A stretch of DNA of 64,000 bases, taken from Burkholderia multivorans ATCC BAA-247 (GTDB lineage Bacteria > Pseudomonadota > Gammaproteobacteria > Burkholderiales > Burkholderiaceae). Within the stretch, counting starts at the first letter, position 1; the number at the start of each line of letters is the position of its first letter. The notes below the pieces were generated by a model, which made no database searches, was not told where the DNA came from, and saw nothing but the letters and a program-made list of their open reading frames with translations. Position numbers and translations under genes: made by a program. Location of the stretch: contig NZ_CP009830.1 of the NCBI RefSeq assembly GCF_000959525.1, positions 310,001 to 374,000 on the forward strand. Reading direction: 5' to 3'. This document shows positions 4,265-54,568 of the stretch, piece by piece.

Positions 4265-4576
4265 CGCAGAAGACGCCGCCAAAGACGCGAGGGACGCGAG
4301 AAACGCCGGAGACGAGCGCGCACGCGCGCGTGCGCCGCACGCTGCAAGTTCACCCATCGCGTATAGCGAATTGCAACCGGCGTGAACGGCCGCGCGAGCG
4401 GCATCGCGAAGATCGCAAGGCCGTGCATCGCCAACTCGCCCGCCGCAGCCCCCATCCCTGCCTGCTTCCTTGTCGATCCGCGCCGCGCATCGGTCACGCG
4501 CGCGATGCGGGCGCGCACCTTGCTCGACCGCGTGGCGGCGACGATGCCGTTGCCGCATTCGACAAGGAGGTCCGAC
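4265..4576 (+). other. 312-bp intergenic region upstream of the alcohol dehydrogenase
   Basis: No gene is supported here. The left part is rich in short purine-rich near-repeats (agacgc, gacgcgag). An alternating CG tract follows at about 4317-4335. The right part holds a candidate sigma-54 promoter at 4509-4524 and the AAGGAGG ribosome site at 4564-4570. An open frame from 4382 reaches the dehydrogenase but lacks a ribosome site and reads as unlikely protein, so I did not extend the gene into it. Confidence 0.6.
4509..4524 (+). promoter_or_regulatory. Candidate sigma-54 promoter for the 4577 dehydrogenase operon
   Basis: Reads GGGCGCGCACCTTGCT: GG and GC elements at the right spacing with a perfect TTGC -12. 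The -24 half deviates at two bases. The -12 C is 54 bp before the start codon. Confidence 0.4.
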
Positions 4577-5782
4577 ATGAAAGCAGTCGTATTTCACGGT
4601 ATCGGCGACATCCGCATCGATACCGTACCCGATCCGGAAGTCGCCGACACCACCGACGCGGTCGTGCGCCTGACGGCCAGCGCGATCTGCGGCACCGATC
4701 TGCACATGGTGCGCGGCACGCTAGGCGGCATGAAGCCGGGCACGATTCTTGGGCACGAAGGCGTCGGCATCGTCGAGGCGGTCGGCCGCGACGTGCGTAA
4801 TCTGCGGCGCGACGACCGCGTGCTGATTCCGTCGACGATCGCATGCGGCCACTGCGTGTACTGCCGTGCCGGCTATACCGCGCAGTGCGACGTCGCGAAT
4901 CCGGGTGGGCCGCGCGCGGGCACCGCGTTCTTCGGCGGCCCGGCCGACACGGGCGCGTTCGACGGACTGCAGGCCGAATACGCGCGCACGCCGCTCGCGA
5001 ACGCGAGCCTGATCCGTCTGCCCGACGAAATCGACGACGATCGCGCGATCCTGATGTCCGACATTTTTCCGACCGGCTATTTCGGCGCGCAGCTCGCCGA
5101 AGTGAAGCCGGGCGATACGGTCGCCGTGTTCGGCGCGGGCCCGGTCGGGCAGTTCGCGATCGCGAGCGCGAAGCTGATGGGTGCGGGCCGCGTGATCGCG
5201 ATCGACCGGATCGCATCGCGTCTCGACATGGCCTGTGCGCAGGGCGCGGAAGCGGTCGACTTCTCCGAGGAAGATCCGGTCGACACCGTGCTGCGTCTGA
5301 CGGGTGGAATCGGCGTCGATCGCGTGATCGACGCGGTCGGTGTCGACGCGATGCGCGCGACGCATGGGCCCGCTGCGGCCGACCACGAGGCCGCGCGTGC
5401 GTTCGATGCGGAGGTCGACGCGGTCGCGCCGCGCCGCAAGCCGGACGGCCGCTACTGGGTGCCGGGCGACGGGCCGTCGCAGGTGCTGCAATGGGCGGTG
5501 CGCGCGGTCGCGAAGGCGGGCACGGTCGCGGTGATCGGCGTGTATCCGCCGCAGGCGCGCGTGTTTCCGATCGGCGAGGCGATGAACCGCAATCTCACGA
5601 TCAAGATGGGCAACTGCAATCACCGGACGATCACGCCGCAACTGATCGAATTGGTGCGCAGCGGTGCGTTCGATCCGTTGTCGGTGCTGACGCAGCGCGA
5701 GCCGCTGACCAATGCGATCGACGCGTATCGCGCCTTCGACGTGCGCGAGCCGGGCTGGATCAAAGTGAAACTGGAGCCGTGA
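4577..5782 (+). CDS. Zinc-dependent alcohol dehydrogenase family protein
   Basis: Medium-chain NAD(P)-dependent alcohol/aldehyde oxidoreductase, 401 aa, cytosolic. The ATG at 4577 is set by AAGGAGG six bases upstream. The catalytic zinc ligands are present: AICGTDLH and the GHEGVG motif. Four structural-zinc cysteines lie in CGHCVYCRAGYTAQC. The nucleotide-binding fold has VFGAGPVGQFAI. The protein matches the glutathione-independent formaldehyde dehydrogenase-like subgroup by its long loop after the structural zinc. The substrate is unknown. The stop overlaps the start region of the Cys-rich gene at 5785, so the two are probably co-translated. A diverged paralogue without the catalytic zinc lies at 34648. 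Confidence 0.9.
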   Translation: MKAVVFHGIGDIRIDTVPDPEVADTTDAVVRLTASAICGTDLHMVRGTLGGMKPGTILGHEGVGIVEAVGRDVRNLRRDDRVLIPSTIACGHCVYCRAGYTAQCDVANPGGPRAGTAFFGGPADTGAFDGLQAEYARTPLANASLIRLPDEIDDDRAILMSDIFPTGYFGAQLAEVKPGDTVAVFGAGPVGQFAIASAKLMGAGRVIAIDRIASRLDMACAQGAEAVDFSEEDPVDTVLRLTGGIGVDRVIDAVGVDAMRATHGPAAADHEAARAFDAEVDAVAPRRKPDGRYWVPGDGPSQVLQWAVRAVAKAGTVAVIGVYPPQARVFPIGEAMNRNLTIKMGNCNHRTITPQLIELVRSGAFDPLSVLTQREPLTNAIDAYRAFDVREPGWIKVKLEP

Positions 5783-5784
5783 TC

Positions 5785-6135
5785 ATGGAACCCGCAACGA
5801 ACCGCACCGAACTGAACGCGCGCTACGACACGTGCATGGCGGCATGCGACGCATGTGCCCATGCGTGCGACGCCTGCGCCGGCGCGTGTCTCGCGGAGCC
5901 CGACCCGCGCGCGCTGACCGCATGCATCGCGCTCGACATCGACTGCGCGCTGCTGTGCCGCTTCGCGTCCGGCGCGATGGCCCGCCGCAGCGTGCTCGCA
6001 CCGCAGATCTGCGCACTGTGCGCCCAGGTGTGCGAGCGCTGTGCGGCGGAATGCCGACGCCATACGCACGAGCACTGCCGGCGCTGCGCCCTCGCCTGCG
6101 ATGCCTGCGCGGCGATGTGCCGCGCGATGGCGTGA
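5785..6135 (+). CDS. Cys-rich four-helix bundle protein (DUF326-like, copper-storage type)
   Basis: Small soluble protein of 116 aa with about 20 cysteines, mostly in CxxxC and CxxC spacing (MAACDACAHACDACAGAC, ICALCAQVCERCAAEC, CRRCALACDACAAMC). This pattern is that of the four-helix-bundle copper-binding (Csp-like) family, in which helix-facing Cys bind many Cu(I) ions. No signal peptide is seen, so it would act in the cytosol. ATG at 5785 is two bases after the dehydrogenase stop; GTG at 5779 in the same frame is possible. Its coupling to a dehydrogenase suggests thiol or metal buffering under stress, which is an inference. Confidence 0.82.
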   Translation: MEPATNRTELNARYDTCMAACDACAHACDACAGACLAEPDPRALTACIALDIDCALLCRFASGAMARRSVLAPQICALCAQVCERCAAECRRHTHEHCRRCALACDACAAMCRAMA

Positions 6136-6145
6136 GCGCGGCCGC

Positions 6146-7732: not shown

Positions 7733-7857
7733 CAGAGGCGAGCTCAGCTGCAAATGGAACGCCATGGGCCGCCCGCAGGACAGCGGGACGGCGGCGCAGT
7801 GGCTGGGGGCGGCACCCCGAGAGCATACGGGATCGCCGCGTGATTCGCCAATCCGCA

Positions 7858-7873
7858 TGCACGGACTGTGCCG
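7858..7873 (-). promoter_or_regulatory. Candidate sigma-54 promoter for the hybrid kinase
   Basis: Minus strand reads CGGCACAGTCCGTGCA, with GG and GC elements correctly spaced. The -12 C is 127 bp from ATG 7732, or 94 bp from the alternative ATG 7765. Confidence 0.45.
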
Positions 7874-8009: not shown

Positions 8010-8025
8010 CGGCACGGCACTTGCG
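8010..8025 (+). promoter_or_regulatory. Candidate sigma-54 promoter for the 8098 gene
   Basis: Reads CGGCACGGCACTTGCG, matching the -24/-12 consensus at all but the outer bases. It ends 74 bp before the start codon. Confidence 0.62.
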
Positions 8026-8499: not shown

Positions 8500-8512
8500 C
8501 GCAAAAACTGCA
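8500..8512 (+). promoter_or_regulatory. Weak match to the candidate enhancer element
   Basis: CGCAAAAACTGCA resembles the TGAAA-NN-TTTKCA element only partly. It lies about 65 bp upstream of the 8573 promoter and is followed by an inverted repeat CTGCAA-TTCGG-TTGCAG. Confidence 0.25.
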
Positions 8513-8572
8513 ATTCGGTTGCAGATCGGCACGACCGGCGCGTGCGGCGTACGCGTTCGGGCGCCGCACGCG

Positions 8573-8588
8573 CGGCATGCCGATTGCG
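8573..8588 (+). promoter_or_regulatory. Candidate sigma-54 promoter for the BON/ABC-fusion operon
   Basis: Reads CGGCATGCCGATTGCG, with a perfect TTGC -12 element. The -12 C is 70 bp from ATG 8657. This promoter would drive the BON gene, the mini-ORF and the ABC fusion. Confidence 0.62.
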
Positions 8589-8656
8589 CCGGCGACGCGG
8601 CGCGCGCGCCGGGCGGCATGGGGCCGCTCGCCGCGCACGCGGCCAAGGAGGACACG

Positions 8657-12901: not shown

Positions 12902-12997
12902 TCGCAAGCGCAGCGCGGTGCGGGCACGTTTTTACAGCCGGTTATAAAAAAGCCAGCGAACGCGCCGCGACGCGCGACGCAACGCGGTTCGAAACGG

Positions 12998-13013
12998 ACG
13001 GGCACGAATCTCG
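12998..13013 (+). promoter_or_regulatory. Weak candidate sigma-54 promoter for the glycan operon
   Basis: Reads GGGCACGAATCTCGCT. The -24 half is good; the -12 half is TCGC rather than TTGC. It lies 77 bp before the GTG start at 13089. Confidence 0.33.
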
Positions 13014-13030
13014 CTGTCTTCCCTGCGATG

Positions 13031-15654: not shown

Positions 15655-15657
15655 CGC

Positions 15658-20456: not shown

Positions 20457-21500
20457 TCACTGGCTCGACGCGTTCGTCGCCGGGTTCGTGCCGCTTCCCG
20501 ATCCGCCGCCTGCGGTGCCGGAGCCGCCCGACAGGTTCGCGACGAGATTGCGCTCGTGCTCGGGCAGCAGCGCGAGGCGGTTGTACAGCGTTTTCAGGCT
20601 GATGCCGAGCGCCTTCGCGGTGCGCGGCTTGTCGCCGTTGAAATGCCGCAGCGACGCGACGATGAAGCGCTGCTGCGTATGCGCGAGCGTCGTGCCGATA
20701 TGGAGCGTCATCGCGTTGTGCCGCACTTCCTCGCGCGGCGGCTGGCGGCGCGGCAGCTGCAGGTCGATCTGCTCGTCCGCGAGGATGAACGCGCGCTCGA
20801 CCGCGTTGCGCAGTTCGCGCACGTTGCCGGGCCACGTGTAGGCGCGCAGCGCCTTCATCGCCTGCGTCGACAGCCGCTTGCGCGTGCGATGGCGCGTGTT
20901 CAGCCGCTCGACGATCTGCATCGCGATCTCGCCGACGTCGTCCTCGCGCTGGCGCAGCGCGGGCACGTGCAGCGCGACCGTCGCGATGCGGTAGAACAGG
21001 TCTTCGCGCAGGCGCCCGCTGCGCACCGCTTCGACCGGATCGTGATGGGTGGCCGCGACGATGCGCACGTCGATCGGAATCGCTTCGTGGCCGCCGACGC
21101 GCATGATCGTGTTCGACTCGAGCGTACGCAGCAGCTTGACCTGCAGCTCGAGCGGCATCTCGGCGATCTCGTCGAGAAACAGCGTGCCGCCGCGCGCGGC
21201 CTCGAACATGCCGACGTGCTGCGCCACCGCGCCGGTGAAGCTGCCTTTCTCGTGGCCGAACAATTGCGACTCGGCGATATCGCCGGGAATTGCGCCGCAA
21301 TTGACCGGCACGAACGGCCCGCGCCGACGCGGGCTCATGTCGTGCAGCAGTCGCGCGACAATGTCCTTGCCCGCGCCGCTCTCACCCACGATCAATACGC
21401 TTGCGCGCGTGGTGGCGACGCGCGACACCTTCAGCATCAGGGTCTGGATCGAGCGCGAGCGGCCGAACAGCCGCGTGCCGTCATCGTCGGATTTCGACAT
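20457..21500 (-). CDS. Sigma-54 activator without receiver domain (PspF-like architecture)
   Basis: 347 aa. Only about 17 residues precede the AAA+ domain: Walker A GESGAGKD, sigma-54-contacting loop GSFTGA, Walker B GGTLFLDEIAEM, arginine-finger region RLREDLFYRIA. The C-terminal Fis-type helix-turn-helix reads AKALGISLKTLYNRLALLPE, followed by a Gly/Ser-rich tail. It activates sigma-54 polymerase from upstream sites. Lacking a receiver, it should be controlled by a partner or by its own level. Start ATG 21500; the ribosome site is weak. Its recognition helix is almost identical to that of the divergent regulator at 21849, so they may share DNA targets. Confidence 0.9.
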   Translation of the reverse strand: MSKSDDDGTRLFGRSRSIQTLMLKVSRVATTRASVLIVGESGAGKDIVARLLHDMSPRRRGPFVPVNCGAIPGDIAESQLFGHEKGSFTGAVAQHVGMFEAARGGTLFLDEIAEMPLELQVKLLRTLESNTIMRVGGHEAIPIDVRIVAATHHDPVEAVRSGRLREDLFYRIATVALHVPALRQREDDVGEIAMQIVERLNTRHRTRKRLSTQAMKALRAYTWPGNVRELRNAVERAFILADEQIDLQLPRRQPPREEVRHNAMTLHIGTTLAHTQQRFIVASLRHFNGDKPRTAKALGISLKTLYNRLALLPEHERNLVANLSGGSGTAGGGSGSGTNPATNASSQ

Positions 21501-21848: not shown

Positions 21849-23216
<1,368 letters not shown>

Positions 23217-24950: not shown

Positions 24951-27254
24951 ATGAGTGAAAAGATGCGCACGCATGCCGGAAATTGCGCGACGGCCGTCAT
25001 GTTCGTCGCGATCGCGACGGTGCTGCAGGCGCTCGCGATTCGCTTCGGCGGCGCCAACATGCCGCTCGCGGTGTACTACCCGTTGCTCGCGGCGATCGCC
25101 TGGGCGACGTCGTTCCTGTTCGGCCTGATCGCGACGCTCGCGAGCAGCGTGCTCGTGTGGACGCTGTTCCTGTCCGATCCGGCCGCGTACGCGATGTCGC
25201 TGTCGGAGCGTCTCGTGCGGCTCGGCGAATTTGCGCTGATCGGCGTGCTCGCGTGCGCAGTCGTCGCGGCGGTGCGCCATGCGCGCGTGACGAACGAGCG
25301 TGCGCGACGCCGCGAAGCCGCGGCGCGCGCGCAGTTCGAGGCGCTGCTGAATGCGCTGCCGGACGGCGTGATCGCCGCCGATACGAACGCGCGGCTGACC
25401 TACGTGAACGCGGCGGCGGCCGCGCTGCTCGGCTGCCGGCCGGACGACGCGGCCGGCCGCGCGCTGCGCGCCGTGCTGCAGCTGACCGATCGCGACGGAC
25501 GGCGCGTGCAGACCTCGGCGCTCGAACATGCGCTCGGCGGCACGCGCACGACCTGCGAGCGCCACTGGCTGCGCGTGGCCGGCGGCGAGCCCGTGCCGGT
25601 CGCGGAGACGGCCGCGCCGATCGCCGATGCGGACGGCAACGTCGACGGCGCAGTGCTGCTGCTGCGCGACGCGAGCGCGGACCGCGCGCGGGCGGACGCC
25701 GCGCAGGTCCGGCGCGCGGTCGTCGACGCGTCGCCCGATGCGCTCATCGGGATCGACCGCGACGCGCGTATCGTCAGCTGGAATCCGGCCGCGCAGCGCA
25801 TCTTCGGCTACGACGAAGAGGCGGCCTACGGCCGCCGTTTCGACTCGCTGATCGCGATGCGCTGGCTCAAGCGTCATCCGCTCGTGCAGACCTTCGACCA
25901 TCTGCGCGAAATCGTCGGGCCGGTCGACCTGCTCTGCGTGCGACGCGACGGCGGACGCTTCCGCGCGACGGTCGCCGCGCGGCCCGTGCGCGGCGAGGCA
26001 CGCGACGGCGTCGCGCTGTCGATCACGCTGCGCGAGACCGGCGCACAGCGCCGTCAGGACCGGCGCACGCAACGCTCGCTGCGCAGCGCGCGCGACGCGG
26101 GCGAGCAGGCCGCGACGTCGAATCGTCTGAAGGATGAATTGCTCGCCACCGTATCGCACGAATTGCGCACGCCGCTGAACGTGATCTACGGGTGGATCGA
26201 GGTGCTGCGCAATTCGGGCGACGACGCGCTGCGCGTGCAGGCGATCGACGCGATCGACCGCAGCGCGCGCTCGCTCACGCGCATGGTCGGCGACATCCTC
26301 GATGCGTCGTCGCTGTCCACAGGCAAGCTGCGGCTCGACACGATGCCGGTCGACGTCGTGCGGCTGTTCGCCGATGTCGTCGCCGCGTTCCAGACGGCCG
26401 CATCGAGCACCGGCATCGCGCTCGAATTCGAGTCGCGTGTCGCGACCTGCATCGTCTCGGGCGACGCCGAGCGGCTGCGGCAGATGCTGTCGAACCTCGT
26501 ATCGAACGCGCTGAAATTCACGCCGGCCGGCGGCGACGTCACGGTCAGCGTCGCGCACGACGACACGCATGCCGTGCTGACCGTGACCGACACCGGGCAG
26601 GGCATCGCGCCGGAGTTCGTGCCGCACGTGTTCGACATGTTCCGGCGCGCGGACGATTCGCCGGCCTCGTCGCGGCGCGGCCTCGGGCTCGGCCTGTCGA
26701 TCGTCCGGCATATCGTGCAGCTGCACGGCGGCACGGTCGTCGTCGACAGCGCGGGGCGCAATCGCGGTACGACCTTCACCGTGAAGCTGCCGGCCGGCTG
26801 GCAGCCGATCGGCGCGATGGCATGGGGGATCGCGCAGACGGTCGTCGCGCGCGAACGGCTCGGCCTCGACACGCAGCGGATCCTGATCGTCGACGACGAC
26901 GCGACCACGCGCGCGAGCCTGACCGCCGCGCTGCGCACGCTCGGCGCCGAAGTCGCGGTCGCATCGTCGGGCCATCAGGCCGTGACGATCGCCGCGCAGA
27001 TGCGGCCGACCGTCGTGCTGTCGGATCTCGCGATGTCGGACGGCGACGGCTTCTGGCTGCTCGACGCGATCCGCCGGCGCGCGGCCGAAGGCGACGACGC
27101 GTGCAACCCGCGCGTCGTCGCGGTGACCGCGCACGCGGGGCTCGCCGACGAGCGGCGCGCGCGCGCGGCCGGCTTCGACGGCTATCTCTGCAAGCCGGTC
27201 GACGTCGGCGATCTCGCGCGCGAGATCGCGCGCGTGACGAGCCGCGACGACTGA
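24951..27254 (+). CDS. Membrane hybrid histidine kinase with two PAS domains and receiver
   Basis: 767 aa. Residues about 12-105 hold hydrophobic helices of a DUF4118-like (KdpD-type) membrane region. Two PAS domains follow, about 120-240 and 250-365 (the latter with DALIGIDRDARIVSWNPAAQRIFGY). HisKA His is near 402 in LATVSHELRTPLN. HATPase has N-box NLVSNALKF, G1 DTGQGIAP and G2 RGLGLGLSIV. The receiver (about 640-765) begins ILIVDDDATTRAS, with phospho-Asp in VVLSDLAMSDGDG. Start ATG 24951 has GGGAGCG upstream; ATG 24963 is possible. No regulator adjoins it; the sigma-54 response regulator at 21849 is a plausible partner by proximity. Confidence 0.9.
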   Translation: MSEKMRTHAGNCATAVMFVAIATVLQALAIRFGGANMPLAVYYPLLAAIAWATSFLFGLIATLASSVLVWTLFLSDPAAYAMSLSERLVRLGEFALIGVLACAVVAAVRHARVTNERARRREAAARAQFEALLNALPDGVIAADTNARLTYVNAAAAALLGCRPDDAAGRALRAVLQLTDRDGRRVQTSALEHALGGTRTTCERHWLRVAGGEPVPVAETAAPIADADGNVDGAVLLLRDASADRARADAAQVRRAVVDASPDALIGIDRDARIVSWNPAAQRIFGYDEEAAYGRRFDSLIAMRWLKRHPLVQTFDHLREIVGPVDLLCVRRDGGRFRATVAARPVRGEARDGVALSITLRETGAQRRQDRRTQRSLRSARDAGEQAATSNRLKDELLATVSHELRTPLNVIYGWIEVLRNSGDDALRVQAIDAIDRSARSLTRMVGDILDASSLSTGKLRLDTMPVDVVRLFADVVAAFQTAASSTGIALEFESRVATCIVSGDAERLRQMLSNLVSNALKFTPAGGDVTVSVAHDDTHAVLTVTDTGQGIAPEFVPHVFDMFRRADDSPASSRRGLGLGLSIVRHIVQLHGGTVVVDSAGRNRGTTFTVKLPAGWQPIGAMAWGIAQTVVARERLGLDTQRILIVDDDATTRASLTAALRTLGAEVAVASSGHQAVTIAAQMRPTVVLSDLAMSDGDGFWLLDAIRRRAAEGDDACNPRVVAVTAHAGLADERRARAAGFDGYLCKPVDVGDLAREIARVTSRDD

Positions 27255-29688: not shown

Positions 29689-29704
29689 GGCAATCGTCAT
29701 GCCC
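29689..29704 (-). promoter_or_regulatory. Candidate sigma-54 promoter for the GT4/UXS operon
   Basis: Minus strand reads GGGCATGACGATTGCC; -12 C is 54 bp from ATG 29636. The divergent BON gene has its own site at 29836-29851. Confidence 0.55.
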
Positions 29705-29736: not shown

Positions 29737-29749
29737 GCCGCAAAAATTA
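29737..29749 (+). promoter_or_regulatory. Possible enhancer element between divergent sigma-54 promoters
   Basis: CGCAAAAATTACA partly matches the complement form (TGMAAA-NN-TTTCA) of the element seen at 40704, 51624 and 52784. It lies about 90 bp upstream of the 29836 promoter and 40 bp upstream of the minus-strand one. A CAACGCGTTG palindrome follows. Confidence 0.3.
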
Positions 29750-29835
29750 CAACGCGTTGGATGAAAGGGCGTCTGATCATCGGCGTGCAGGCGCCGAACG
29801 CGGTTCGACCGGACGTGACGCGCGCGTGGGCGGTG

Positions 29836-29851
29836 CGGCACGCCGCTTGCG
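29836..29851 (+). promoter_or_regulatory. Candidate sigma-54 promoter for the BON/SDR operon
   Basis: Reads CGGCACGCCGCTTGCG, with -24 GGCACG and -12 TTGC complete. The -12 C is 53 bp before ATG 29903. Confidence 0.65.
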
Positions 29852-32320: not shown

Positions 32321-32399
32321 GCCGCGTATTTTCTGCACGCATTTTGCAATGCCGCGCGCGCGAGGCCGCGCCGTCGGCGCCGCGCGGGCGCGCGGCGCA

Positions 32400-32415
32400 C
32401 GGCACGGCGCTTGCG
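32400..32415 (+). promoter_or_regulatory. Candidate sigma-54 promoter for the 32452 SDR operon
   Basis: Reads CGGCACGGCGCTTGCG, a near-perfect site. The -12 C is 38 bp from ATG 32452, giving a leader of about 26 nt that contains the ribosome site. A CTGCACGCATTTTGCAATG stretch about 60 bp upstream may be part of an activator site. Confidence 0.65.
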
Positions 32416-37945: not shown

Positions 37946-37961
37946 AGCAACCCGCATGCCA
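37946..37961 (-). promoter_or_regulatory. Consensus sigma-54 promoter for the udgX/NRAMP operon
   Basis: Minus strand reads TGGCATGCGGGTTGCT, a full match to the consensus. The -12 C is 121 bp from ATG 37826. Confidence 0.68.
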
Positions 37962-39733: not shown

Positions 39734-39749
39734 CGCAACGGGCGTGCCG
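39734..39749 (-). promoter_or_regulatory. Candidate sigma-54 promoter for the CBS/PRC genes
   Basis: Minus strand reads CGGCACGCCCGTTGCG, a near-perfect site whose -12 C is 38 bp from ATG 39697. It fits in the gap between the 39751 gene and the CBS gene. Confidence 0.65.
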
Positions 39750-40072: not shown

Positions 40073-40088
40073 CGGCACGCGGCTTGCC
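40073..40088 (+). promoter_or_regulatory. Candidate sigma-54 promoter for the 40157 gene
   Basis: Reads CGGCACGCGGCTTGCC; -12 C is 70 bp from ATG 40157. The element is nearly self-complementary, so the opposite strand (CGGCAAGCCGCGTGCC) is itself a fair -24/-12 match toward the minus-strand gene. Confidence 0.6.
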
Positions 40089-40799: not shown

Positions 40800-40815
40800 C
40801 GGAACGCGGCTTGCG
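40800..40815 (+). promoter_or_regulatory. Candidate sigma-54 promoter for the 40878 operon
   Basis: Reads CGGAACGCGGCTTGCG, with TTGC complete and A for C at one -24 position. The -12 C is 64 bp before ATG 40878. Confidence 0.5.
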
Positions 40816-42302: not shown

Positions 42303-42427
42303 CGCGGCGGCGCGCACGCGAATTGCGCCTCCAAACTTGCCGCCCGCTTGTAAAAAAGCGGGTGCGGAAGGGGCGAAAAATAGGGCGCGTAGGCGCCAAA
42401 GTCCCGTCCGGTGGGCGTCTGCGGGAC

Positions 42428-42443
42428 TGGCATGGAAGCTGCA
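42428..42443 (+). promoter_or_regulatory. Candidate sigma-54 promoter of rpoN2 (autoregulation)
   Basis: Reads TGGCATGGAAGCTGCA: -24 TGGCATG and -12 CTGCA. The -12 C is 49 bp before ATG 42491. An inverted repeat AGTCCCG/CGGGACT (42400-42406, 42422-42428) abuts the -24 element. Confidence 0.6.
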
Positions 42444-42490: not shown

Positions 42491-43918
42491 ATGTCCGTCA
42501 CGCTTGCGCTCCAGATGCGACAGCATCTGGCACTTACGCCAAGGCTCCAGCAGTCGCTGCGCCTGCTGCAGTTGTCTTCGCTCGAATTCCAGCAGGAATT
42601 GCGGCAGGCGCTCGACACGAACCCTTTCCTCGAAGACGGCCAGGGCGACGACGAGGCCGCCGCGCCGGATCCGGCGGCCGAAGCTGCGGCACCGGAGGCC
42701 GCACCCGAGCGCGACGACGTGCGCCCGGTCGACGGCGAGCTGTCGTATACGGCCGCGCCGGCGCCGCGCGGCGGCAGCCGTCAGGGTGAAGACGGCGGCG
42801 ATCTGTCGCCCGGCGAATGGATGGCCGCCGAGCCGTCGCTGCATCAGCATCTGCACGAGGCGCTGCGGCTCTATCCGCTGAACCGGCGCGATCGCGAAGC
42901 GGCGCGCCTCGTGATCGACGCGCTCGACGACGACGGCTACCTGCGTCAGGAGCTCGGCGACCTGCTCGGCGCGGCCGATCCCGCGCTCTTGCTATCGGAG
43001 CGCGATCTGTCCGTCGCGCTGCGGCTCGTGCAGATGCTCGACCGGCCCGGCATCGCCGCGCGTTCGCTGTCGGAGTGCCTGCTGCTGCAGCTCGACGCGA
43101 TTCCGGCCGGCACGCCGGCGCTGCCCGAAGCGAAGGCGATCGCGCGCGAACATCTCGAACGCCTCGCCCGCCGCGAGACCGCCGAGATCCAGCGGCGCAT
43201 CGGCTGCAACCAGCAGACGCTGCAGGCCGCGTGCGCGCTCGTGCGCGGGCTCGACCCGCGTCCCGGCAACCACTACGGCAGCACGCGCGGCGATTACGTG
43301 GTGCCCGACGTGATCGTGCGCCAGGTGCGCGACGAGTGGGTCGTGACGATCAATCCGGCCGTGCTGCCGCGTGCGCGGCTGCACGAGCGCTATGCGACGC
43401 TGTTCGCGCAGTCGAGCGGCGAGCGCGACTCGCCGCTCGGCCAGCAGCTGCAGGAAGCGCGCTGGCTGATCCGCAACGTGCAGAAGCGCTTCGACACGAT
43501 CCAGCGCGTCGGCGAATGCATCGTCGCGCGGCAGCGCGACTTCTTCCGCTACGGCGAGATCGCGATGAAGCCGCTCGTGCTGCGCGACATCGCGGAGGAG
43601 CTCGACCTGCACGAATCGACCGTGTCGCGCGCGACCGGCAACAAGTACATGGCGACGCCGCACGGCACGTTCGAGTTCAAGCATTTCTTCCCGCGCAAGC
43701 TGGAGGCGGCGGGGCGCGGCGTCTGCTCGGCATCGGCCGCGAAGGTGCTGATCCGCGACATGATCGCCGCGGAACGGCACACCGATCCGCTGTCGGACGT
43801 CGCGCTGACGCAGAACCTCGCGGGCCGCGGCATCCTTCTTGCGCGCCGTACGGTGACCAAGTATCGGCAGGCGATGAAGATTCCGCCGGCCGAGCTGCGC
43901 CGCCGCGACGCCGCATGA
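42491..43918 (+). CDS. rpoN2: RNA polymerase sigma-54 factor, second copy (rpoN2)
   Basis: 475 aa. Region I (1-50) is Gln/Leu-rich (LTPRLQQSLRLLQLSSLEFQQEL). Region II is acidic and Ala-rich (50-110). Region III has the core-binding part and the HTH (DIAEELDLHESTVSRATGNKYM). The RpoN box near the end is ARRTVTKYR (canonical ARRTVAKYR), with one conservative change. It directs polymerase to -24/-12 promoters and needs an AAA+ activator, of which two are encoded nearby. It is not in the housekeeping rpoN context (no lptB, hpf or ptsN next to it), hence a second copy. AGGAGGA precedes ATG 42491. Confidence 0.93.
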   Translation: MSVTLALQMRQHLALTPRLQQSLRLLQLSSLEFQQELRQALDTNPFLEDGQGDDEAAAPDPAAEAAAPEAAPERDDVRPVDGELSYTAAPAPRGGSRQGEDGGDLSPGEWMAAEPSLHQHLHEALRLYPLNRRDREAARLVIDALDDDGYLRQELGDLLGAADPALLLSERDLSVALRLVQMLDRPGIAARSLSECLLLQLDAIPAGTPALPEAKAIAREHLERLARRETAEIQRRIGCNQQTLQAACALVRGLDPRPGNHYGSTRGDYVVPDVIVRQVRDEWVVTINPAVLPRARLHERYATLFAQSSGERDSPLGQQLQEARWLIRNVQKRFDTIQRVGECIVARQRDFFRYGEIAMKPLVLRDIAEELDLHESTVSRATGNKYMATPHGTFEFKHFFPRKLEAAGRGVCSASAAKVLIRDMIAAERHTDPLSDVALTQNLAGRGILLARRTVTKYRQAMKIPPAELRRRDAA

Positions 43919-44946: not shown

Positions 44947-45987
44947 ATGGCAGCACGGATGATCTGGAAAGGCGCGATCAGCTTCGGGCTCGTGCACGTG
45001 CCCGTGCAGCTGTTTCCGGCCACGCGCACCGTGAAACCGTCGTTCCGGCTGCTCGACAAGCGCTCGATGGACCCGGTCGGCTATCGGCAGATCAACAAGC
45101 GTACCGGCAAGGAGGTGTCGCGCGACGACATCGTGCGCGGCTACGAGTACGAGAAAGAGCGCTACGTCGTGCTGACCGACGAGGAGATCCGCGCGGCCAA
45201 CCCCGAATCGACGCAGACGGTCGACATCCTGACGTTCGTCGATCAGGAGGCCGTGTCGTTCCTCTATCTCGACACGCCGTACTACCTGGTGCCCGACCGC
45301 AAGGGCGAAAAGGTCTATGCGCTGCTGCGCGACGCGCTGAAGGACAGCGGCAAGATCGGCATCGCGCTGGTCGTGATGCGCGACAAGCAGCATCTCGGCG
45401 CGCTGATTCCGGTCGGCCCGCTGCTCGCGCTCGACACGCTGCGCTGGCAGGACGAACTGCGCGGGCTCGACGAGCTGTCGACGCCGGTCGAGGACGCGAA
45501 GCGCGCGGGCGTGAGCGCGCGCGAGCTCGCGATGGCGAAGAAGCTGATCGACGACATGTCCGGCGAATGGACGCCCGAGCAGTATCACGACACGTTCCGC
45601 GACGACATTCTCGAACTCGTCGAGCGCAAGGTGCGCCAAGGGCGGATCGAGGAAATCGAGGAACGTCCGGCCGATCGCGGCCACGTGCCGTCGAACGTCG
45701 TGGATCTGACCGAGCTGCTCAAGCGCAGCCTGCGCGGCGGCGGCCGCGGTTCGGACCGCGCGGCCGCGAACGAGGACGAACACGACGAGGACGCCGACGC
45801 GCACACGCGTAGCCGTCGTCAGCCGGCCGCGAAGCGCGGCGCGAAGACCGCCGCGAAGACGAGCGCCAAGACGGCGACGAAAACGGCCGCGAAGCGCACG
45901 TCGGCGGCCAAGGCCGGCGACAAGCGCGGCGACGGCAGCGCCGCCGCGAAAAAGACCGCCGCGCGCAGCAAGAAGCGCGCGGCATGA
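44947..45987 (+). CDS. ku: Ku protein, bacterial non-homologous end joining
   Basis: 346 aa. The Ku core (about 1-265): IWKGAISFGLVHVPVQLFPAT, HIVRGYEYEKERYVVLTDEEIRAA-like segment, then SGEWTPEQYHDTFRDDILELVERK. It forms a homodimer ring on DNA ends and recruits LigD. After residue 265 comes an acidic stretch and then a Lys/Ala-rich tail of about 70 residues (KRGAKTAAKTSAKTATK, SKKRAA), like histone H1 tails; such tails strengthen DNA binding in other bacterial Ku. AAGGAGG lies before ATG 44947. ligD begins 24 bp after the stop, on the same transcript. Confidence 0.92.
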   Translation: MAARMIWKGAISFGLVHVPVQLFPATRTVKPSFRLLDKRSMDPVGYRQINKRTGKEVSRDDIVRGYEYEKERYVVLTDEEIRAANPESTQTVDILTFVDQEAVSFLYLDTPYYLVPDRKGEKVYALLRDALKDSGKIGIALVVMRDKQHLGALIPVGPLLALDTLRWQDELRGLDELSTPVEDAKRAGVSARELAMAKKLIDDMSGEWTPEQYHDTFRDDILELVERKVRQGRIEEIEERPADRGHVPSNVVDLTELLKRSLRGGGRGSDRAAANEDEHDEDADAHTRSRRQPAAKRGAKTAAKTSAKTATKTAAKRTSAAKAGDKRGDGSAAAKKTAARSKKRAA

Positions 45988-46011
45988 CGCCGCGACACGC
46001 AAGGTGACACG

Positions 46012-48792
46012 ATGGCCGGCAAGCTCGATCCGTATCGCCGCAAGCGTCATTTCGACGCGACGCCCGAACCCGAAGGCACGCGCCGCCGCCGCGCGCCGGC
46101 CGACGCGCAGCCGGCCGAGCGCGGCCGGCATCCGCTGCGCTACGTGATCCAGGAGCATCACGCGCGGCGCCTGCATTACGATTTCCGGCTCGAACTCGAC
46201 GGCACGCTGAAGTCGTGGGCCGTGCCGAAAGGGCCGAGTTTCGATCCGTCGGTCAAGCGGCTCGCGGTGCACGTCGAGGATCATCCGCTCGAATACGCGT
46301 CGTTCGAAGGCGAGATTCCGGCCGGCCATTACGGCGCGGGCTCGGTGATCGTCTGGGACGAGGGCACGTGGGCGCCGGAGGGCGGGCTCGCGAAGGCGCG
46401 CGAAGGCTATCGCGCAGGCAAGCTGAAATTCCGGCTCGACGGCGAGAAGCTGCACGGCGGCTGGGCGCTCGTGCGCAGCGGCCGCCAGGAAGGGCGGCAG
46501 GAGCAGTGGCTGCTGATCAAGGAGCGCGACGACGACGCGCGCAGCGCCGATGCGTACGACGTCGTCGCGCAGCAGCCCGGCAGCGTGCACGACGGCGCGG
46601 CGCGCGGGCGCGCGGCGAACGGGCGCGCGGCGAACGGGCATGCGCGGGCGCGCCGGCGCGGTGAGAAAGCGGCCGGCAAGGAGGCCGACGCCGAGGCGCA
46701 CGCCGACACCGACGCGCCGCGCACCCGCGCGACGAAAGCGAAACGGCCGCCCGCGCTGTCGCGCGTCGAAGGCGCGGTGCGCGCGCCATTGCCGGAGCGC
46801 GTCGCGCCGCAGCTCGCGACGCTCGTCGATGCGCCGCCCACGCACGGCGACTGGCGCTACGAACTGAAGTTCGACGGCTACCGGATGCTCGCGCGCATCG
46901 CGGGCAAGGGCGCGCGGCGGCACGTGACGCTGATGACGCGCGAGGGCCGCGACTGGACGCCGAAGCTGCGCGCGCTGCGCGATGCGCTCGCGGCGCTCGA
47001 CGTCGACGATGCATGGCTCGACGGCGAAGCGGTCGTGCTCGGCGAGAACGGGCTGCCCGATTTCCAGCGGCTGCAGAACGCGCTCGGTTCCGGGCAGTCG
47101 GATGCGGTCACGCTGTTCGTGTTCGATCTGCCCTACCTGAACGGCTATGACCTGCGCGATGCGCCGCTGACCGCACGCCGCGCGCAACTCGAACCGCTGT
47201 TCGACGACGCCGATCCGGCGCGCCTGCGGTTTTCGCCGGATCTCGGCAGCGATGCGGCCGGACTGATCGCGAACGCGTGCGACACGGGCCTCGAAGGGCT
47301 GATCGGCAAGCGCGCGGACGCACGCTACCGCGCGGGACGCTCCCCGGCCTGGATCAAGCTCAAATGCCGGCGCCGGCAGGAGTTCGTGATCGGCGGCTAT
47401 ACGGAGCCGACCGGCAGCCGCCACGGCTTCGGCGCGCTGCTGCTCGGCGTGCACGAACCGGCGCCGAACGGCAAGCGCACGCGCGGCGCGGCGCCGCTGC
47501 GCTACGTCGGCCGTGTCGGTACCGGCTTCGACACGCGGATGCTCGACAAGCTCGCGCCGCTGCTGCGCGAGCGCGAACGCGCGTCGCCGCCGTTCGATCC
47601 GCCGCCGCAAGGGTGGTCGCGCACGCGCGTCCACTGGGTCGAGCCGACGCTCGTCGCCGAATGCGAATTCGCGGAATGGACCGGCGACGGCATCGTGCGA
47701 CAAGCCGCGTTCGTGGCGCTGCGCGAGGACAAGCCGGCGTCGCAGATCGTCAGGGAAGTCGCACGCCACCCCACCACGGAGAACACGATGGACGAGCGCA
47801 CGACCTCATCCGCGCGGCGCGGCCGCGCCGCCGCCGACACGCACGATGGCGGGCAAGAACGCGCGCAGCATCGCACGCCCGCCGCACGCGGCAAGTCGGC
47901 GCCCGATCAGGTCGGCCAGGTCCGCATCACGCATCCGGAACGCGTGCTCGATCGCGAGAGCGGCACGCGCAAGATCGATCTCGCGCACTACTGGGAGCGC
48001 GTCGCGCCGTGGGCGCTGCCCGATCTCGCGGGCCGCCCGGTGTCGCTCGTGCGCGCGCCGCAGGACATCGGCGGCGAGCTGTTTTTCCAGAAGCATGCGG
48101 AGCGCCGCGAGATTCCGTTCGTCACGCAGCATCCGGGACTCGATCCCGGACACGGTCCGCTGCTGTCGATCGACAGCGTCGATGCGCTGATCGGCGCCGC
48201 GCAGATGGGGACGATCGAACTGCATACGTGGAACGCGCACGCGTCGAACATCGAGCGGCCGGACCGGATCGTGTTCGACCTCGATCCCGATCCCGCGCTG
48301 CCGTGGCGCACGATGATCGAGGCCGCGCAGCTCGTGCGCGGGCTGCTCGACGAGCTGGGCCTCGTGTCGTTCTGCAAGACGAGCGGCGGCAAGGGGCTGC
48401 ACGTCGTCGTGCCGATCACGCGGCATTCGGGCTGGGACGAGATGAAGGACTTCTCGCGCGCGGTCGCGCAGCACATCGCGGGCGCGCTGCCCGACCGCTT
48501 CACGGCGACGATGGGGCCGCGTCACCGGCGCGGCAAGATCTTCATCGACTATCTGCGCAACGGGCGTGGCGCGAGCACGATCGCGGCCTACTCGGTGCGT
48601 GCGCGGCCGGGCATGGGCGTGTCGGTGCCGATCGGTTGGGACGAAGTGCCGGCCACGACGGGCGGCGCGCAGTGGACGATCGACACCGTGCACGAACGGC
48701 TCGACGCGCTCGAGCACGATCCGTGGGAAGCGTACGCAGGCACGCGCCAGCGGATCACGGCCGCGATGCGCACGCGCCTCGCCGCGCGCTGA
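46012..48792 (+). CDS. ligD: LigD: phosphoesterase-ligase-polymerase for end joining
   Basis: 926 aa in PE-LIG-POL order. PE (about 40-165) with VIQEHHARRLHYDFRLEL and EDHPLEYASFEGEIPAGHYGAG trims 3' ends. LIG (about 255-580) has the adenylated Lys motif ELKFDGYRML near 285 and motif V AWIKLKC. POL (about 640-915) has VFDLDPDPALPW and TSGGKGLHVVV, the primase-type metal and nucleotide residues. Low-complexity linkers lie at about 195-245 (GRAANGRAANG repeat) and 588-640. This is a complete end-joining ligase, fully paired with Ku. The start ATG 46012 has only a weak AAGG site and probably depends on coupling. Confidence 0.93.
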   Translation: MAGKLDPYRRKRHFDATPEPEGTRRRRAPADAQPAERGRHPLRYVIQEHHARRLHYDFRLELDGTLKSWAVPKGPSFDPSVKRLAVHVEDHPLEYASFEGEIPAGHYGAGSVIVWDEGTWAPEGGLAKAREGYRAGKLKFRLDGEKLHGGWALVRSGRQEGRQEQWLLIKERDDDARSADAYDVVAQQPGSVHDGAARGRAANGRAANGHARARRRGEKAAGKEADAEAHADTDAPRTRATKAKRPPALSRVEGAVRAPLPERVAPQLATLVDAPPTHGDWRYELKFDGYRMLARIAGKGARRHVTLMTREGRDWTPKLRALRDALAALDVDDAWLDGEAVVLGENGLPDFQRLQNALGSGQSDAVTLFVFDLPYLNGYDLRDAPLTARRAQLEPLFDDADPARLRFSPDLGSDAAGLIANACDTGLEGLIGKRADARYRAGRSPAWIKLKCRRRQEFVIGGYTEPTGSRHGFGALLLGVHEPAPNGKRTRGAAPLRYVGRVGTGFDTRMLDKLAPLLRERERASPPFDPPPQGWSRTRVHWVEPTLVAECEFAEWTGDGIVRQAAFVALREDKPASQIVREVARHPTTENTMDERTTSSARRGRAAADTHDGGQERAQHRTPAARGKSAPDQVGQVRITHPERVLDRESGTRKIDLAHYWERVAPWALPDLAGRPVSLVRAPQDIGGELFFQKHAERREIPFVTQHPGLDPGHGPLLSIDSVDALIGAAQMGTIELHTWNAHASNIERPDRIVFDLDPDPALPWRTMIEAAQLVRGLLDELGLVSFCKTSGGKGLHVVVPITRHSGWDEMKDFSRAVAQHIAGALPDRFTATMGPRHRRGKIFIDYLRNGRGASTIAAYSVRARPGMGVSVPIGWDEVPATTGGAQWTIDTVHERLDALEHDPWEAYAGTRQRITAAMRTRLAAR

Positions 48793-50552: not shown

Positions 50553-50568
50553 CGCAATTCGCGTGCCG
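50553..50568 (-). promoter_or_regulatory. Candidate sigma-54 promoter for the DUF3175/antiporter operon
   Basis: Minus strand reads CGGCACGCGAATTGCG, near-perfect; -12 C is 40 bp from ATG 50514. It lies 39 bp from the divergent site at 50608. Confidence 0.66.
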
Positions 50569-50607: not shown

Positions 50608-50623
50608 CGGCATGGGCCTTGCT
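50608..50623 (+). promoter_or_regulatory. Candidate sigma-54 promoter for the 50669 gene
   Basis: Reads CGGCATGGGCCTTGCT, with complete TTGCT; -12 C is 47 bp from ATG 50669. Confidence 0.65.
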
Positions 50624-51052: not shown

Positions 51053-51138
51053 CGATGTCGCGCCGGCTCGCGGCCGGCGCGGCGCGATGGCCGACGCCCG
51101 CCGCCGCGGCGGGCGCGGCGACCACGCAGGAGGACATC

Positions 51139-51611: not shown

Positions 51612-51636
51612 GTTACATGCCGTTGAAATCTTTGCA
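51612..51636 (+). promoter_or_regulatory. Candidate sigma-54 activator (enhancer) site
   Basis: GTTACA (51612-51617), then six bases, then the near-palindrome TGAAATCTTTGCA (51624-51636). The same GTTACA-6-TGAAA arrangement recurs at 52772. Its centre is about 127 bp upstream of the -24 element at 51757. Confidence 0.55.
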
Positions 51637-51755: not shown

Positions 51756-51771
51756 TGGCACGTCGATTGCT
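51756..51771 (+). promoter_or_regulatory. Consensus sigma-54 promoter for the DJ-1/PfpI operon
   Basis: Reads TGGCACGTCGATTGCT, identical to the consensus TGGCACG-N4-TTGCT. The -12 C is 52 bp from ATG 51822. It is the best match in the window. Confidence 0.8.
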
Positions 51772-52771: not shown

Positions 52772-52796
52772 GTTACACGACATTGAAAACTTTTCA
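52772..52796 (+). promoter_or_regulatory. Candidate sigma-54 activator (enhancer) site
   Basis: GTTACA (52772-52777), six bases, then TGAAAACTTTTCA (52784-52796), a near-perfect palindrome. Centred about 82 bp upstream of the -24 element at 52872. Layout is the same as at 51612. Confidence 0.55.
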
Positions 52797-52870: not shown

Positions 52871-52886
52871 TGGCATGCTTCGTGCA
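52871..52886 (+). promoter_or_regulatory. Candidate sigma-54 promoter for the 52974 gene
   Basis: Reads TGGCATGCTTCGTGCA: -24 TGGCATG complete, -12 GTGCA. The -12 C is 89 bp from ATG 52974. Confidence 0.62.
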
Positions 52887-53198: not shown

Positions 53199-53211
53199 CG
53201 AACGGTCCGAT

Positions 53212-53250: not shown

Positions 53251-53253
53251 CAT

Positions 53254-54495
53254 TCAGCGCGCGAGCGCGACCGCGGCATTGACCTGCACGGGCGGCGCAT
53301 CGTCGCTTGGCGCATGCAGGAAGCGGTCGATCACGCCGGGCTCGAACAGCAGGCAGTACGTCGAGCCGCCGAACTGGAAATAACCGATCTCGTCGCCTTT
53401 TTCGACGCGCTGCCCCGGCACGACCTCGATCACGCACGACGACACATCGCCCATCCCGACGAAGACCGCGGCCACCGTGCCCAGGCCCGGATCGTCGCTG
53501 GCGATCGCGACGATCGCGCGCGTGGCGACGGCCGTCATGTAGCCCTGCGAATCGTTGAGCCCGGACGGGTCTTCGCCTTCGACGTCGGCGATCGAGTAAT
53601 AGGTGCCGTCGATGCGGTACGCGTGCGTGACGGTGCCGCGGATCGGCGCATGCCAGCGGTGGTAGTTGTACGCGGCCAGATAGGCCTGGTAGAGATCGCC
53701 GCCGACGAAGTGCTCGGCGAGCGGCAGCCGTGCGGGCGTGAAGATGTCGCGCAGCGAATAGGGTTGCCCCTTGATCCAGAACCGGTCGCGCAGCTGCAGG
53801 TTCGTGGCCGTGTGATAGGGCGCGGCTTCGCACGCGCTGACGATCACGTGCGAATCGTCGGGCGAGGCCACCGGCCGTGCGCCCGCGCGAAAGCGCCGCG
53901 TGAAGAAGTCGTTCCACGAGTCGAAGCCCCAGTGCGGCTGATCCTCGCGGTACTGGAACTGCGACAGGCCGATCCGTTTGCGCGCTTCTTCGCTTAGCCA
54001 GCCGTCCGGCGCCGTCGTCACGAGGTGGTCGCGCGAGTGCGGGCCGCCGAGAAAATCGCACCAGACGTTCAGCACACGCTTCAGATGCGCGTTGACGGTC
54101 GCGTCACGGAATACCGCGCGGCCCGACGGCATGCACATCGGCCAGTCGAGGAACGCGTTCAGCGGACACACGATCAGGCTCGATTCGCTGAAGGGCGGCG
54201 TGTACGTCATCAGATAGTCGATCACCGTCATCAGCTCGCCGATCGACCGGTAGCCGAGGTCGCGGCCCGTCGCGAGCGCCTCGTCGATCGCGCGCGACAG
54301 CCCCATGTGCAGCACCGCGTGATCGTCGAACAGTCGCGCGAGCTCCTGCACGGCCGGCGTGCGCAGCCGTTCGCCGGCCCGTGCGCGCGCGTCCGCGGCA
54401 ATGCGCGTGCGGAACGCGGCCATGTGCTTTTCCTCGCCGGCCAACCATCCGCCGAGTCGGCGGCGGCCTGCTTGCGTGTCGTTGTCGTTCGGCAT
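53254..54495 (-). CDS. Phosphatidylserine decarboxylase family protein with N-terminal associated domain
   Basis: 413 aa. The N-terminal half (about 30-200) matches the PSD-associated domain (HMAAFRTRIAADARAR, FSESSLIVCPLNAFLDWPMC). The C-terminal half is the decarboxylase: FFTRRFRAGARPV, YNYHRWHAPIRGTVTHAYRIDG with the catalytic His, and GGST with the self-cleavage Ser near 378, which would produce the pyruvoyl group. No membrane segment or signal is seen. It may act on phosphatidylserine or another amino acid-like substrate. Start ATG 54495 has GGAGG upstream on the minus strand. Confidence 0.87.
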   Translation of the reverse strand: MPNDNDTQAGRRRLGGWLAGEEKHMAAFRTRIAADARARAGERLRTPAVQELARLFDDHAVLHMGLSRAIDEALATGRDLGYRSIGELMTVIDYLMTYTPPFSESSLIVCPLNAFLDWPMCMPSGRAVFRDATVNAHLKRVLNVWCDFLGGPHSRDHLVTTAPDGWLSEEARKRIGLSQFQYREDQPHWGFDSWNDFFTRRFRAGARPVASPDDSHVIVSACEAAPYHTATNLQLRDRFWIKGQPYSLRDIFTPARLPLAEHFVGGDLYQAYLAAYNYHRWHAPIRGTVTHAYRIDGTYYSIADVEGEDPSGLNDSQGYMTAVATRAIVAIASDDPGLGTVAAVFVGMGDVSSCVIEVVPGQRVEKGDEIGYFQFGGSTYCLLFEPGVIDRFLHAPSDDAPPVQVNAAVALAR

Positions 54496-54531
54496 GTCAC
54501 CTCCGGGAGCGAGTCTCGATCGCGCTGGTGT

Positions 54532-54547
54532 AGCAATCGGCCTGCCT
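54532..54547 (-). promoter_or_regulatory. Candidate sigma-54 promoter for the PSD-like gene
   Basis: Minus strand reads AGGCAGGCCGATTGCT: -12 complete, two deviations in -24. The -12 C is 38 bp from ATG 54495. Only 5 bp separate it from the divergent site at 54553. Confidence 0.48.
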
Positions 54548-54552
54548 GTGCA

Positions 54553-54568
54553 CGGCACCGAAATTGCG
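54553..54568 (+). promoter_or_regulatory. Candidate sigma-54 promoter for the 54608 gene
   Basis: Reads CGGCACCGAAATTGCG, TTGC complete; -12 C is 41 bp from ATG 54608. Confidence 0.58.

Follow-up and report, generated by a model that had tools for sequence, protein, structure and literature searches.

We report that a 64,000-nucleotide stretch of the Burkholderia multivorans ATCC BAA-247 genome (hereafter the window: positions 310,001 to 374,000 of contig NZ_CP009830.1) contains a second sigma-54 gene, rpoN2, genes for two AAA+ sigma-54 activators, EBP1 and EBP2, and an excess of −24/−12 promoter-like sites. We consider it probable that these elements form a dedicated sigma-54 circuit, in which RpoN2, EBP1, and EBP2 would control a general-stress regulon (DUF892, BON, UdgX, CBS, and DJ-1 proteins, ion transport, and probably Ku/LigD). 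This reading draws on the genes themselves, the excess of sites, the conservation of those sites in relatives, a conserved palindrome at part of the promoters, and the co-occurrence of RpoN2 and EBP1. The genome comprises 6.32 Mb in three contigs, and the window (C1:310001-374000) lies on C1, the third and smallest replicon, of 550,289 bp. In a replicon of B. multivorans FDAARGOS_246, RpoN2 is 100% identical (469 of 475 residues aligned), and the gene order matches that of the window over the 41-kb stretch compared.

Sigma-54 sites were scored with an exact pattern (YGGCAYG-N4-YTGC) and with a matrix whose weights follow the literature consensus (strong sites, at least 13 bits). Intergenic sites oriented to a called gene at most 300 bp away were classed as promoter-like, and 35 stretches of 20 kb spread over the two larger contigs, C2 and C3, served as control. 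The window, 1% of the genome, contains 12 of the 117 exact-pattern matches in the genome, as compared to a mean of 1.17 and a maximum of 5 in 100 shuffles. At 13 bits or more, the window has 14 sites, 12 intergenic and 11 promoter-like, and the control has 19 sites, 11 intergenic and 4 promoter-like. Per kilobase of intergenic sequence, this amounts to 1.89 sites in the window (12 in 6.3 kb) and 0.08 in the control (11 in 135.6 kb). The twelfth strong intergenic site of the window (52871) points at a 74-residue open reading frame (52974-53198) that is outside the initial gene call and is annotated in the near-identical replicon. The original prediction, which proposed 23 oriented sigma-54 promoters between 4.5 and 54.6 kb around rpoN2 and named ten of them as strongest, is thus confirmed with respect to the excess, and all ten named sites are intergenic and oriented to a gene; equal density elsewhere, which would have spoken against it, was absent from the sampled control. 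The number 23 is too high: the evidence supports about 17 promoters, of which 12 are strong and 5 are weak and conserved. Lowering the threshold to 9 bits gives equal numbers of genic and intergenic sites in the window (19 each), so that weak sites count only if conserved; acceptance of all 23 sites as promoters was rejected. Two good matches inside genes, at 50769-50784 and 18935-18950 (14.8 and 14.3 bits), were excluded as promoters; the latter matches the exact pattern and lies within a glycosyltransferase gene.

The G+C content is 0.67-0.76 along the island and 0.66 in the first 4 kb of the window, and sites could in principle be mostly artefacts of base composition in a GC-rich genome. 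Genome-wide, the exact pattern occurs 117 times (61+56) in 6.32 Mb, below the 137 (80+57) of a backward-read control, indicating that the genome as a whole is not enriched, and the equal genic and intergenic numbers at 9 bits likewise fit an artefact. The strong sites, however, are intergenic and oriented (11 promoter-like sites in 6.3 kb of intergenic sequence versus 4 in 135.6 kb) and are conserved despite drift of their spacers, which already contradicts an artefact for this class; we regard this explanation as very improbable.

To assess conservation, the 60 kb surrounding rpoN2 were compared in 12 relatives, drawn from the 53 other genomes of the genus that have RpoN2; RpoN2 identities are 74-94%. 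For the ten strong families, 46 of 55 regions upstream of orthologs contain a site (40 at 13 bits or more), as do 12 of 13 for five weak families (7858, 13000, 29689, 54532, and 54553; 1 at 13 bits or more), as compared to 15 of 99 for 24 families having no site in the window (3 at 13 bits or more). Comparison of 58 site pairs showed no difference in the two Gs at −24 or in the −12 TGC, whereas individual spacer positions agree in 59-72% of pairs and the complete four-base spacer in only 9 pairs. Because the site-finding method itself favours fixed positions, it is the drift of the spacers that carries information. Among 30 loci encoding DUF3175, counting that of the window's own genome, the forward site is present in 26 and both divergent sites in 25; the four lacking the forward site are three distant RpoN2-bearing genomes (G017, G027, and G015) and one RpoN2-less genome (G021). 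No site was found near the DUF3175 genes of two further RpoN2-less genomes (G022 and G035) or near the second DUF3175 genes of RpoN2-bearing G010 and G062; because those second copies have none, the sites belong to the island copies of DUF3175.

The rpoN2 gene (42491..43918, +; 475 residues), one of two rpoN genes in the genome (the other is on C3), encodes a complete sigma-54, with the AID (region I), core-binding, and DNA-binding domains all above the Pfam cut-off (PF00309, PF04963, and PF04552; NCBIfam NF009118), in agreement with the predicted second rpoN. A truncated RpoN2, implied by a downstream TTG start that omits region I, was rejected, since an in-frame ATG at 42491 restores the AID. 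The RpoN box reads ARRTVTKYRQ in RpoN2 and ARRTVAKYRE in RpoN1. In another genome of the family, G332, one of two rpoN2 matches (C1:2035574-2037043) has an in-frame stop.

EBP1 (21849..23216, +) has a full receiver, an AAA+ domain with a GSFTGA loop, and a helix-turn-helix, and resembles NtrC/AtoC; EBP2 (20457..21500, −), divergent from EBP1 and adjoining it in several relatives, has the AAA+ domain (GSFTGA) and helix-turn-helix and no receiver. Both have PF00158 and HTH_8 (Pfam/NCBIfam assignments), bearing out the predicted pair of activators. The genome has 20 activators with strong matches (at least 178 bits), 5 of them on C1. RpoN2 is present in 54 of 65 genomes of the genus, and an EBP1 ortholog (E≤1e-110) is present in exactly the same 54; the same 11 lack both, including one genome, G057, that is only 82% complete. 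The two also co-occur without close linkage: they are ~190 kb apart in G010 and on different contigs in G059 and G062. An RpoN1 tree was built from 20 genomes, namely the 11 that lack RpoN2 and 9 of the 54 that have it; the RpoN2-less genomes are interspersed among the RpoN2-bearing ones, so RpoN2 losses (or transfers) recurred. Linkage or replicon loss can explain part of the co-loss.

The loop reads GSFTGA in EBP1 and EBP2, in all 26 loops located in the stretches from relatives, and in all 17 from named loci, and in 0 of the 3 other C1 activator loops; that the loop is unique to RpoN2 activators was rejected, as it occurs in 2 of 14 other loops obtained on C2 and C3 (15 tried). Elsewhere in the genome, C2:1341723-1348342 contains a further GSFTGA activator, similar to EBP2 around the loop and ~6 kb from a divergent sigma-54-like pair, and is perhaps a second, smaller RpoN2 module. 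Extra EBP1-like genes, 62-76% identical, occur elsewhere in genomes G014, G015, G050, G027, G038, and G042, which suggests duplication of the module; G014 and G015 have three and two of them, and the three in examined stretches have sigma-54 sites within the same 20 kb. A hybrid histidine kinase gene (24951..27254, +; DUF4118-PAS-PAS-HisKA-HATPase-REC) has orthologs in 8 of the 12 sampled relatives and lies beside EBP1 at three examined loci (L200, L202, and L204), making the kinase a possible partner of EBP1.

The rpoN2 promoter differs from the other strong promoters in the base preceding the −24 GG. The site upstream of rpoN2, TGGCATGGAAGCTGCA (42428..42443, +; 17.7 bits; 48 nucleotides upstream of the ATG), has counterparts in 35 of 36 named rpoN2 loci, and the −26 base is T in 34 of these 35, including four Paraburkholderia-type loci with the TGG-type promoter. 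In the 12 relatives, the base is T in all 11 having a site, as it is in the window. For the other nine strong families in these relatives, the −26 base is C in 30, T in 3, and G in 2 (C versus T, rpoN2 promoter versus other strong promoters: p=5e-8, with related sequences treated as independent), and the window's 11 other strong sites have C in 8 and T in 3. For the five weak families in relatives, the base is G in 6, C in 4, T in 1, and A in 1. Genomes with RpoN2 have a mean of 47.9 occurrences of CGGCAYGN4TTGC versus 29.7 in genomes without (p=9e-6, ignoring relatedness), and TGGCAYGN4TTGCW occurs at similar means (8.7 with and 8.3 without RpoN2); backward controls are equal. In G059, a sigma-54 site and palindrome like those of the rpoN2 promoter lie beside a DUF1328 gene (contig C13, locus L201, near 10017), on a contig other than that of rpoN2.

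These differences bear on which sigma-54 reads the sites. In a comparison of 23 RpoN2 sequences (the window and 22 named loci) with 20 RpoN1 sequences, 26 positions of the DNA-binding domain differ consistently (more than 90% within each group), including RpoN-box T456 (A>T) and Q460 (E>Q), plus changes just after the helix-turn-helix. An alternative, which we regard as unlikely, is that the sites are genuine sigma-54 promoters driven by EBP1 and EBP2 but served by the housekeeping RpoN1, with RpoN2 a redundant or dosage copy sharing the locus. The core recognition motifs (RRTV.KYR) are kept in both paralogs, the activators could supply all specificity, and a study of Bradyrhizobium reports in vitro binding of most tested promoters by both paralogs (PMC13207237). 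The joint presence and absence of RpoN2 and EBP1, the 26 consistent differences, and the tracking of RpoN2 by CGG-class and not TGG-class counts argue instead for reading of the sites by RpoN2 rather than RpoN1, as the dedicated circuit supposes. A two-sigma-54 relay, in which RpoN1 with EBP1 would fire the TGG promoter of rpoN2, and RpoN2, through its changed recognition residues, would then fire CGG promoters poorly read by RpoN1, is a tentative extension that we hold rather doubtful.

A candidate activator-binding palindrome, YTRCA-N6/7-TGYAR, was first spotted by eye in these sequences; it was scored out of 10, with all 120 half-site orders as control. Matches of at least 9/10 occur at 6 of 16 window promoters (mean over half-site orders, 0.8; best of 120), a conserved 8/10 palindrome is common to two more, and in relatives the palindrome occurs at 32 of 93 sites (mean, 4.6; best of 120). 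Among 42 relatives' promoters, none of them a counterpart of the source promoters, 8 have a match of 9 or more, which ranks third of the 120 orders (mean, 2.0), and a full 10/10 match occurs at 3 (mean, 0.11). A strict TTnCAA-N4-TTGnAA scan gave 3 intergenic matches of at least 9 in the window (0.47/kb versus 0.04/kb in the control). In alignments, conserved upstream blocks include CTGCAAT-N3-GTTGCAG (BON), TTACA-N6-TTGAAA (DJ-1; TTGCAA in one relative), TTTTTACAGC...TTATAAA (glycan operon), CCAA-N4-GTTGTAA (two divergent promoters), and CTTGTAA (rpoN2). For rpoN2 itself, the candidate site TTGCCGCCCGCTTGTAA is at 42337..42353, and the best match is at least 9/10 in 20 of the 36 named loci. 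On this evidence, the palindrome is a likely candidate for the EBP1 site. A palindrome of at least 9 accompanies none of the 9 intergenic sites in five CGG-bearing C2 regions, which indicates that some CGG sites lie outside this circuit.

Several observations, in addition to the Bradyrhizobium binding results, weigh against the dedicated circuit. The palindrome was derived by eye from the same sequences in which it was counted; 10 of the 16 window promoters have no match of at least 9; such matches also occur at 3 of 21 other C1 sites and 2 of 17 control sites; and, in the set of 42 promoters, two permuted half-sites outscore it at 9 or more (10 and 9 versus 8). Neither activator gene has an above-threshold sigma-54 site in the window; a sigma-70 scan around these genes gave 1 match versus 0.4 expected. 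Several orthologs in distant relatives (G014, G015, and G017) have no sites. The difference in CGG counts could arise from loss of cargo alongside RpoN2, and 2 of 7 near-neighbour tree comparisons do not have it (G019 and G057 are equal; G058 is below G061). No site of at least 10.5 bits lies upstream of this genome's large catalase gene, and katE as a direct target in this genome was therefore rejected.

The remaining strong promoters are spread across the window. Sites at 8010..8025 (+; 13.2 bits; site in 3/5 orthologs) and 8573..8588 (+; 13.3 bits; 4/6 orthologs) precede a hypothetical gene (8098-8493) and a BON gene (8618-9640), and a 10/10 candidate activator palindrome, CTGCAATTCGGTTGCAG (8508..8524), is kept in alignment with G029 and G012. 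The site at 29836..29851 (+; 13.2 bits; 7/8 orthologs) precedes genes for a BON protein (30017-30307), an SDR, and a DUF2795 protein, and is divergent from a weak site at 29689..29704 (−; 10.2 bits; 3/3 orthologs) that precedes glycosyltransferase and UDP-glucuronate decarboxylase genes; between them lies the candidate activator site TTACAACGCGTTGGAT (29747..29762; 8/10; conserved in alignments). The site at 32400..32415 (+; 13.2 bits; 3/3 orthologs) precedes genes for an SDR (32452-33309), DUF4142 and DUF892-like proteins, and an alcohol dehydrogenase (ADH), and has a 10/10 candidate palindrome, CTGCACGCATTTTGCAA, at 32333..32349. The site at 37946..37961 (−; 19.4 bits; 3/3 orthologs) precedes UdgX (37167-37826) and an Nramp transporter gene, that at 39734..39749 (−; 13.2 bits; 4/6 orthologs) a CBS-domain gene (39266-39697), and that at 40073..40088 (+; 13.2 bits; 5/5 orthologs) a small gene (40157-40462). 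The divergent pair of the DUF3175 locus comprises 50553..50568 (−), before the DUF3175 gene (50158-50514), and 50608..50623 (+), before genes 50735-51052 and 51055-51501. The site at 51756..51771 (+; 19.3 bits; 3/3 orthologs) precedes DJ-1/PfpI (51822-52391) and DUF1488 genes and has a candidate activator site, TTACATGCCGTTGAAA (51613..51628), conserved in G029, G012, and G063. The site of the 74-residue reading frame, 52871..52886 (+; 15.2 bits), has counterparts in the same three relatives, there with a palindrome at 82-83 nucleotides, and the palindrome scan gave the candidate activator site TTACACGACATTGAAA at 52773..52788.

Five weak sites were accepted: besides 29689, these are 7858..7873 (−; 10.6 bits; a weak site of 9.6 bits in 2/3 orthologs), upstream of a hybrid kinase gene (6146-7765) and the least sure of the five; 13000..13015 (+; 9.05 bits; 3/3 orthologs), upstream of an SDR/HAD/heptosyltransferase/carbamoyltransferase operon (13089-20414), with a candidate activator site, TTACAGCCGGTTATAA (12932..12947), conserved in three relatives; 40800..40815 (+; 8.9 bits), upstream of a hypothetical gene (40878-41108) and gene 41105-41416, with counterparts in G029, G059, G010, and G062; and 54532..54547 (−; 11.1 bits; 3/3 orthologs), upstream of a phosphatidylserine-decarboxylase (PSD) family gene (53254-54495). 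The site at 54553, with a weak site in one ortholog, was neither accepted nor rejected.

Sites do not stop at the predicted 54.6-kb limit. The first 300 kb of C1 are control-like (4 intergenic sites of at least 13 bits in 59.9 kb), and C1:374-550 kb is intermediate (17 in 26.9 kb), with 7 such sites at 387-432 kb and 10 more at 455-533 kb. The 387-432 kb sites precede genes for an MgtC-family protein, an iron-sulphur subunit, an SDR (followed by a trehalase-like gene), a thiamine pyrophosphate enzyme, an MR_MLE enzyme, an iron-permease family protein, and a hybrid kinase. Of the 455-533 kb sites, two precede their own activator genes and look like ordinary sigma-54 systems, and one precedes a gene for a pyrroloquinoline quinone (PQQ) dehydrogenase. 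At C1:509-521 kb, a PQQ-dependent dehydrogenase region, equipped with a GAF-type sigma-54 activator of its own and with several strong sites, looks like an ordinary alcohol-oxidation system. Alternatively, the third replicon may have collected several unrelated sigma-54 systems with no single regulon, which would fit the many promoters with no detected palindrome and the presence, at 455-521 kb, of sigma-54 sites preceding metabolic genes and further activator genes. We consider this improbable, since the strong island sites form one class, related conserved palindromes precede unrelated genes, there is one conserved EBP1/EBP2 pair, and a 10/10 palindrome match recurs outside the window, at replicon position 395207.

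The cargo of the proposed RpoN2 circuit is of stress type, as predicted. Pfam/NCBIfam assignments comprise BON (2), SDR (3), DUF4142, DUF892 (2, one barely over the cut-off), DUF2795, zinc ADH, Nramp, UdgX, CBS, PRC, Ku, LigD, DUF3008, DUF1328, DUF3175, a cation antiporter, DJ-1, a PSD-like protein, glycosyltransferases, and a carbamoyltransferase. The Ku and LigD genes of non-homologous end joining (44959..48792, +) lie downstream of rpoN2 and three small genes, with no site of their own, and probably join the regulon by read-through. No promoter-like site was found in the window for the trehalose synthesis genes at 54.9-64 kb. Similar genes (Ku/LigD, DUF892, BON, PRC, DUF3008, and trehalose enzymes) belong to the RpoS regulon of Pseudomonas and the EcfG regulon of Alphaproteobacteria, both of which rely on sigma-70-family factors instead of sigma-54 and its activators. 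Because of this RpoS/EcfG-like cargo, and because, in the one experimental link found for the genus, katE expression at 48-72 h in B. pseudomallei requires RpoN2 (PMC4745423), we expect, by analogy, that the circuit is active in non-growing or drying cells. Elsewhere in the window, 9688-12432 encodes a 914-residue protein in which a response-regulator receiver comes after ABC-transporter membrane and ATPase domains, an unusual fusion; and the single tRNA call, an ARAGORN tRNA-Thr (anticodon agt) at 62637-62722 in the glgX region, is probably false.

Across a draw of 398 Burkholderiaceae genomes from 25 genera, RpoN2 (E≤1e-125) was found in 205, representing 10 genera. Most island genes lie within the sampled 60 kb in only 3 of the 12 relatives (G029, G012, and G063). 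G034 has nine orthologs there, in G058 and G019 little was found beyond rpoN2, EBP1, and a neighbour or two, and in G059 rpoN2 and most cargo are on separate contigs. Of the 60 called window proteins, 55 were examined, and none matched an integrase or transposase family (repeat boundaries were not searched). Of the earlier idea of a self-contained regulon moving as a block, the coherent regulon stands, in view of the conserved sites, the candidate palindrome, and RpoN2-EBP1 co-occurrence; the movement as a block is only partly supported, given the reshuffled cargo, the few relatives that keep most genes together, and the lack of mobility genes among the proteins examined. Because rpoN2 and EBP1 are common and island gene content varies among relatives, the core is widespread and the cargo modular; the locus looks like an old regulatory core with cargo that was reshuffled and is absent in some lineages.

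The sigma-54 family and RpoN2 in Burkholderia are already known, and second rpoN genes are said, in the accessible text of one paper, to be general in multi-replicon beta-proteobacteria (PMC4371752). The comparisons that follow rest on the available portions of the cited papers. In B. pseudomallei, as here, RpoN2 is a second sigma-54 on a secondary chromosome, and an RpoN site is predicted upstream of the stress gene katE; the regulon, activator, and promoter class are not described there (PMC4745423), and the catalase gene of the present genome lacks such a site. In R. solanacearum, likened by description and not by sequence, rpoN2 is a megaplasmid copy 44% identical to rpoN1, and its expression depends on rpoN1, as a relay or a sigma-54 promoter before rpoN2 predicts; no specific phenotype is reported for it, and its role is called enigmatic (PMC4371752). 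RpoNp of Bradyrhizobium sp. DOA9 is a megaplasmid sigma-54 assigned to stress adaptation, whose 22 putative sites, potentially usable by either paralog, display a TGG to CGG shift before the −24 GG like that in the window; DOA9, however, is an Alphaproteobacterium, also has a TGC to CGC change at −12, which is not the rule in the window, and is not described as having one island, and both its paralogs bound most promoters in vitro (PMC13207237). The low-oxygen-activated (lxa) locus of B. cenocepacia is likewise a stress-gene locus in Burkholderia, but is set apart by its description, being marked by six universal stress proteins with no sigma-54 link mentioned (PMC9104464). In the literature searched, which mostly excluded subscription papers, we found no description of a stress regulon with this activator pair, candidate enhancer, and promoter class.

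In the mechanism we propose, a signal, probably through the adjoining hybrid kinase, would activate EBP1; the receiver-less EBP2 would act with or against it. EBP1 would bind TTRCA-N6/7-TGYAA palindromes ~40-140 nucleotides upstream of −24/−12 promoters and open sigma-54 RNA polymerase there. The first target would be rpoN2 itself, whose promoter retains the canonical TGG, and RpoN2 would then serve the cargo promoters, the strong ones of which are mostly CGGCAYG-N4-TTGC. In stationary phase or other non-growing stress, the output may comprise DNA-repair, iron/manganese, redox, ion, envelope, and glycan functions.

From this locus, RpoN2 acquires a specific proposed function, together with a partner activator, a class of promoters, and a list of genes. 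If the proposal is correct, it would represent a general stress response rebuilt on sigma-54, and, because sigma-54 needs ATP-driven activation at every promoter, such a response could be held off until a signal arrives; the recurrent loss or lack of the RpoN2-EBP1 pair within the genus would be a natural experiment on stress survival. If the relay operates, the general stress response of the Burkholderiaceae would run via an orthogonal sigma-54 that replaces RpoS or acts alongside it.

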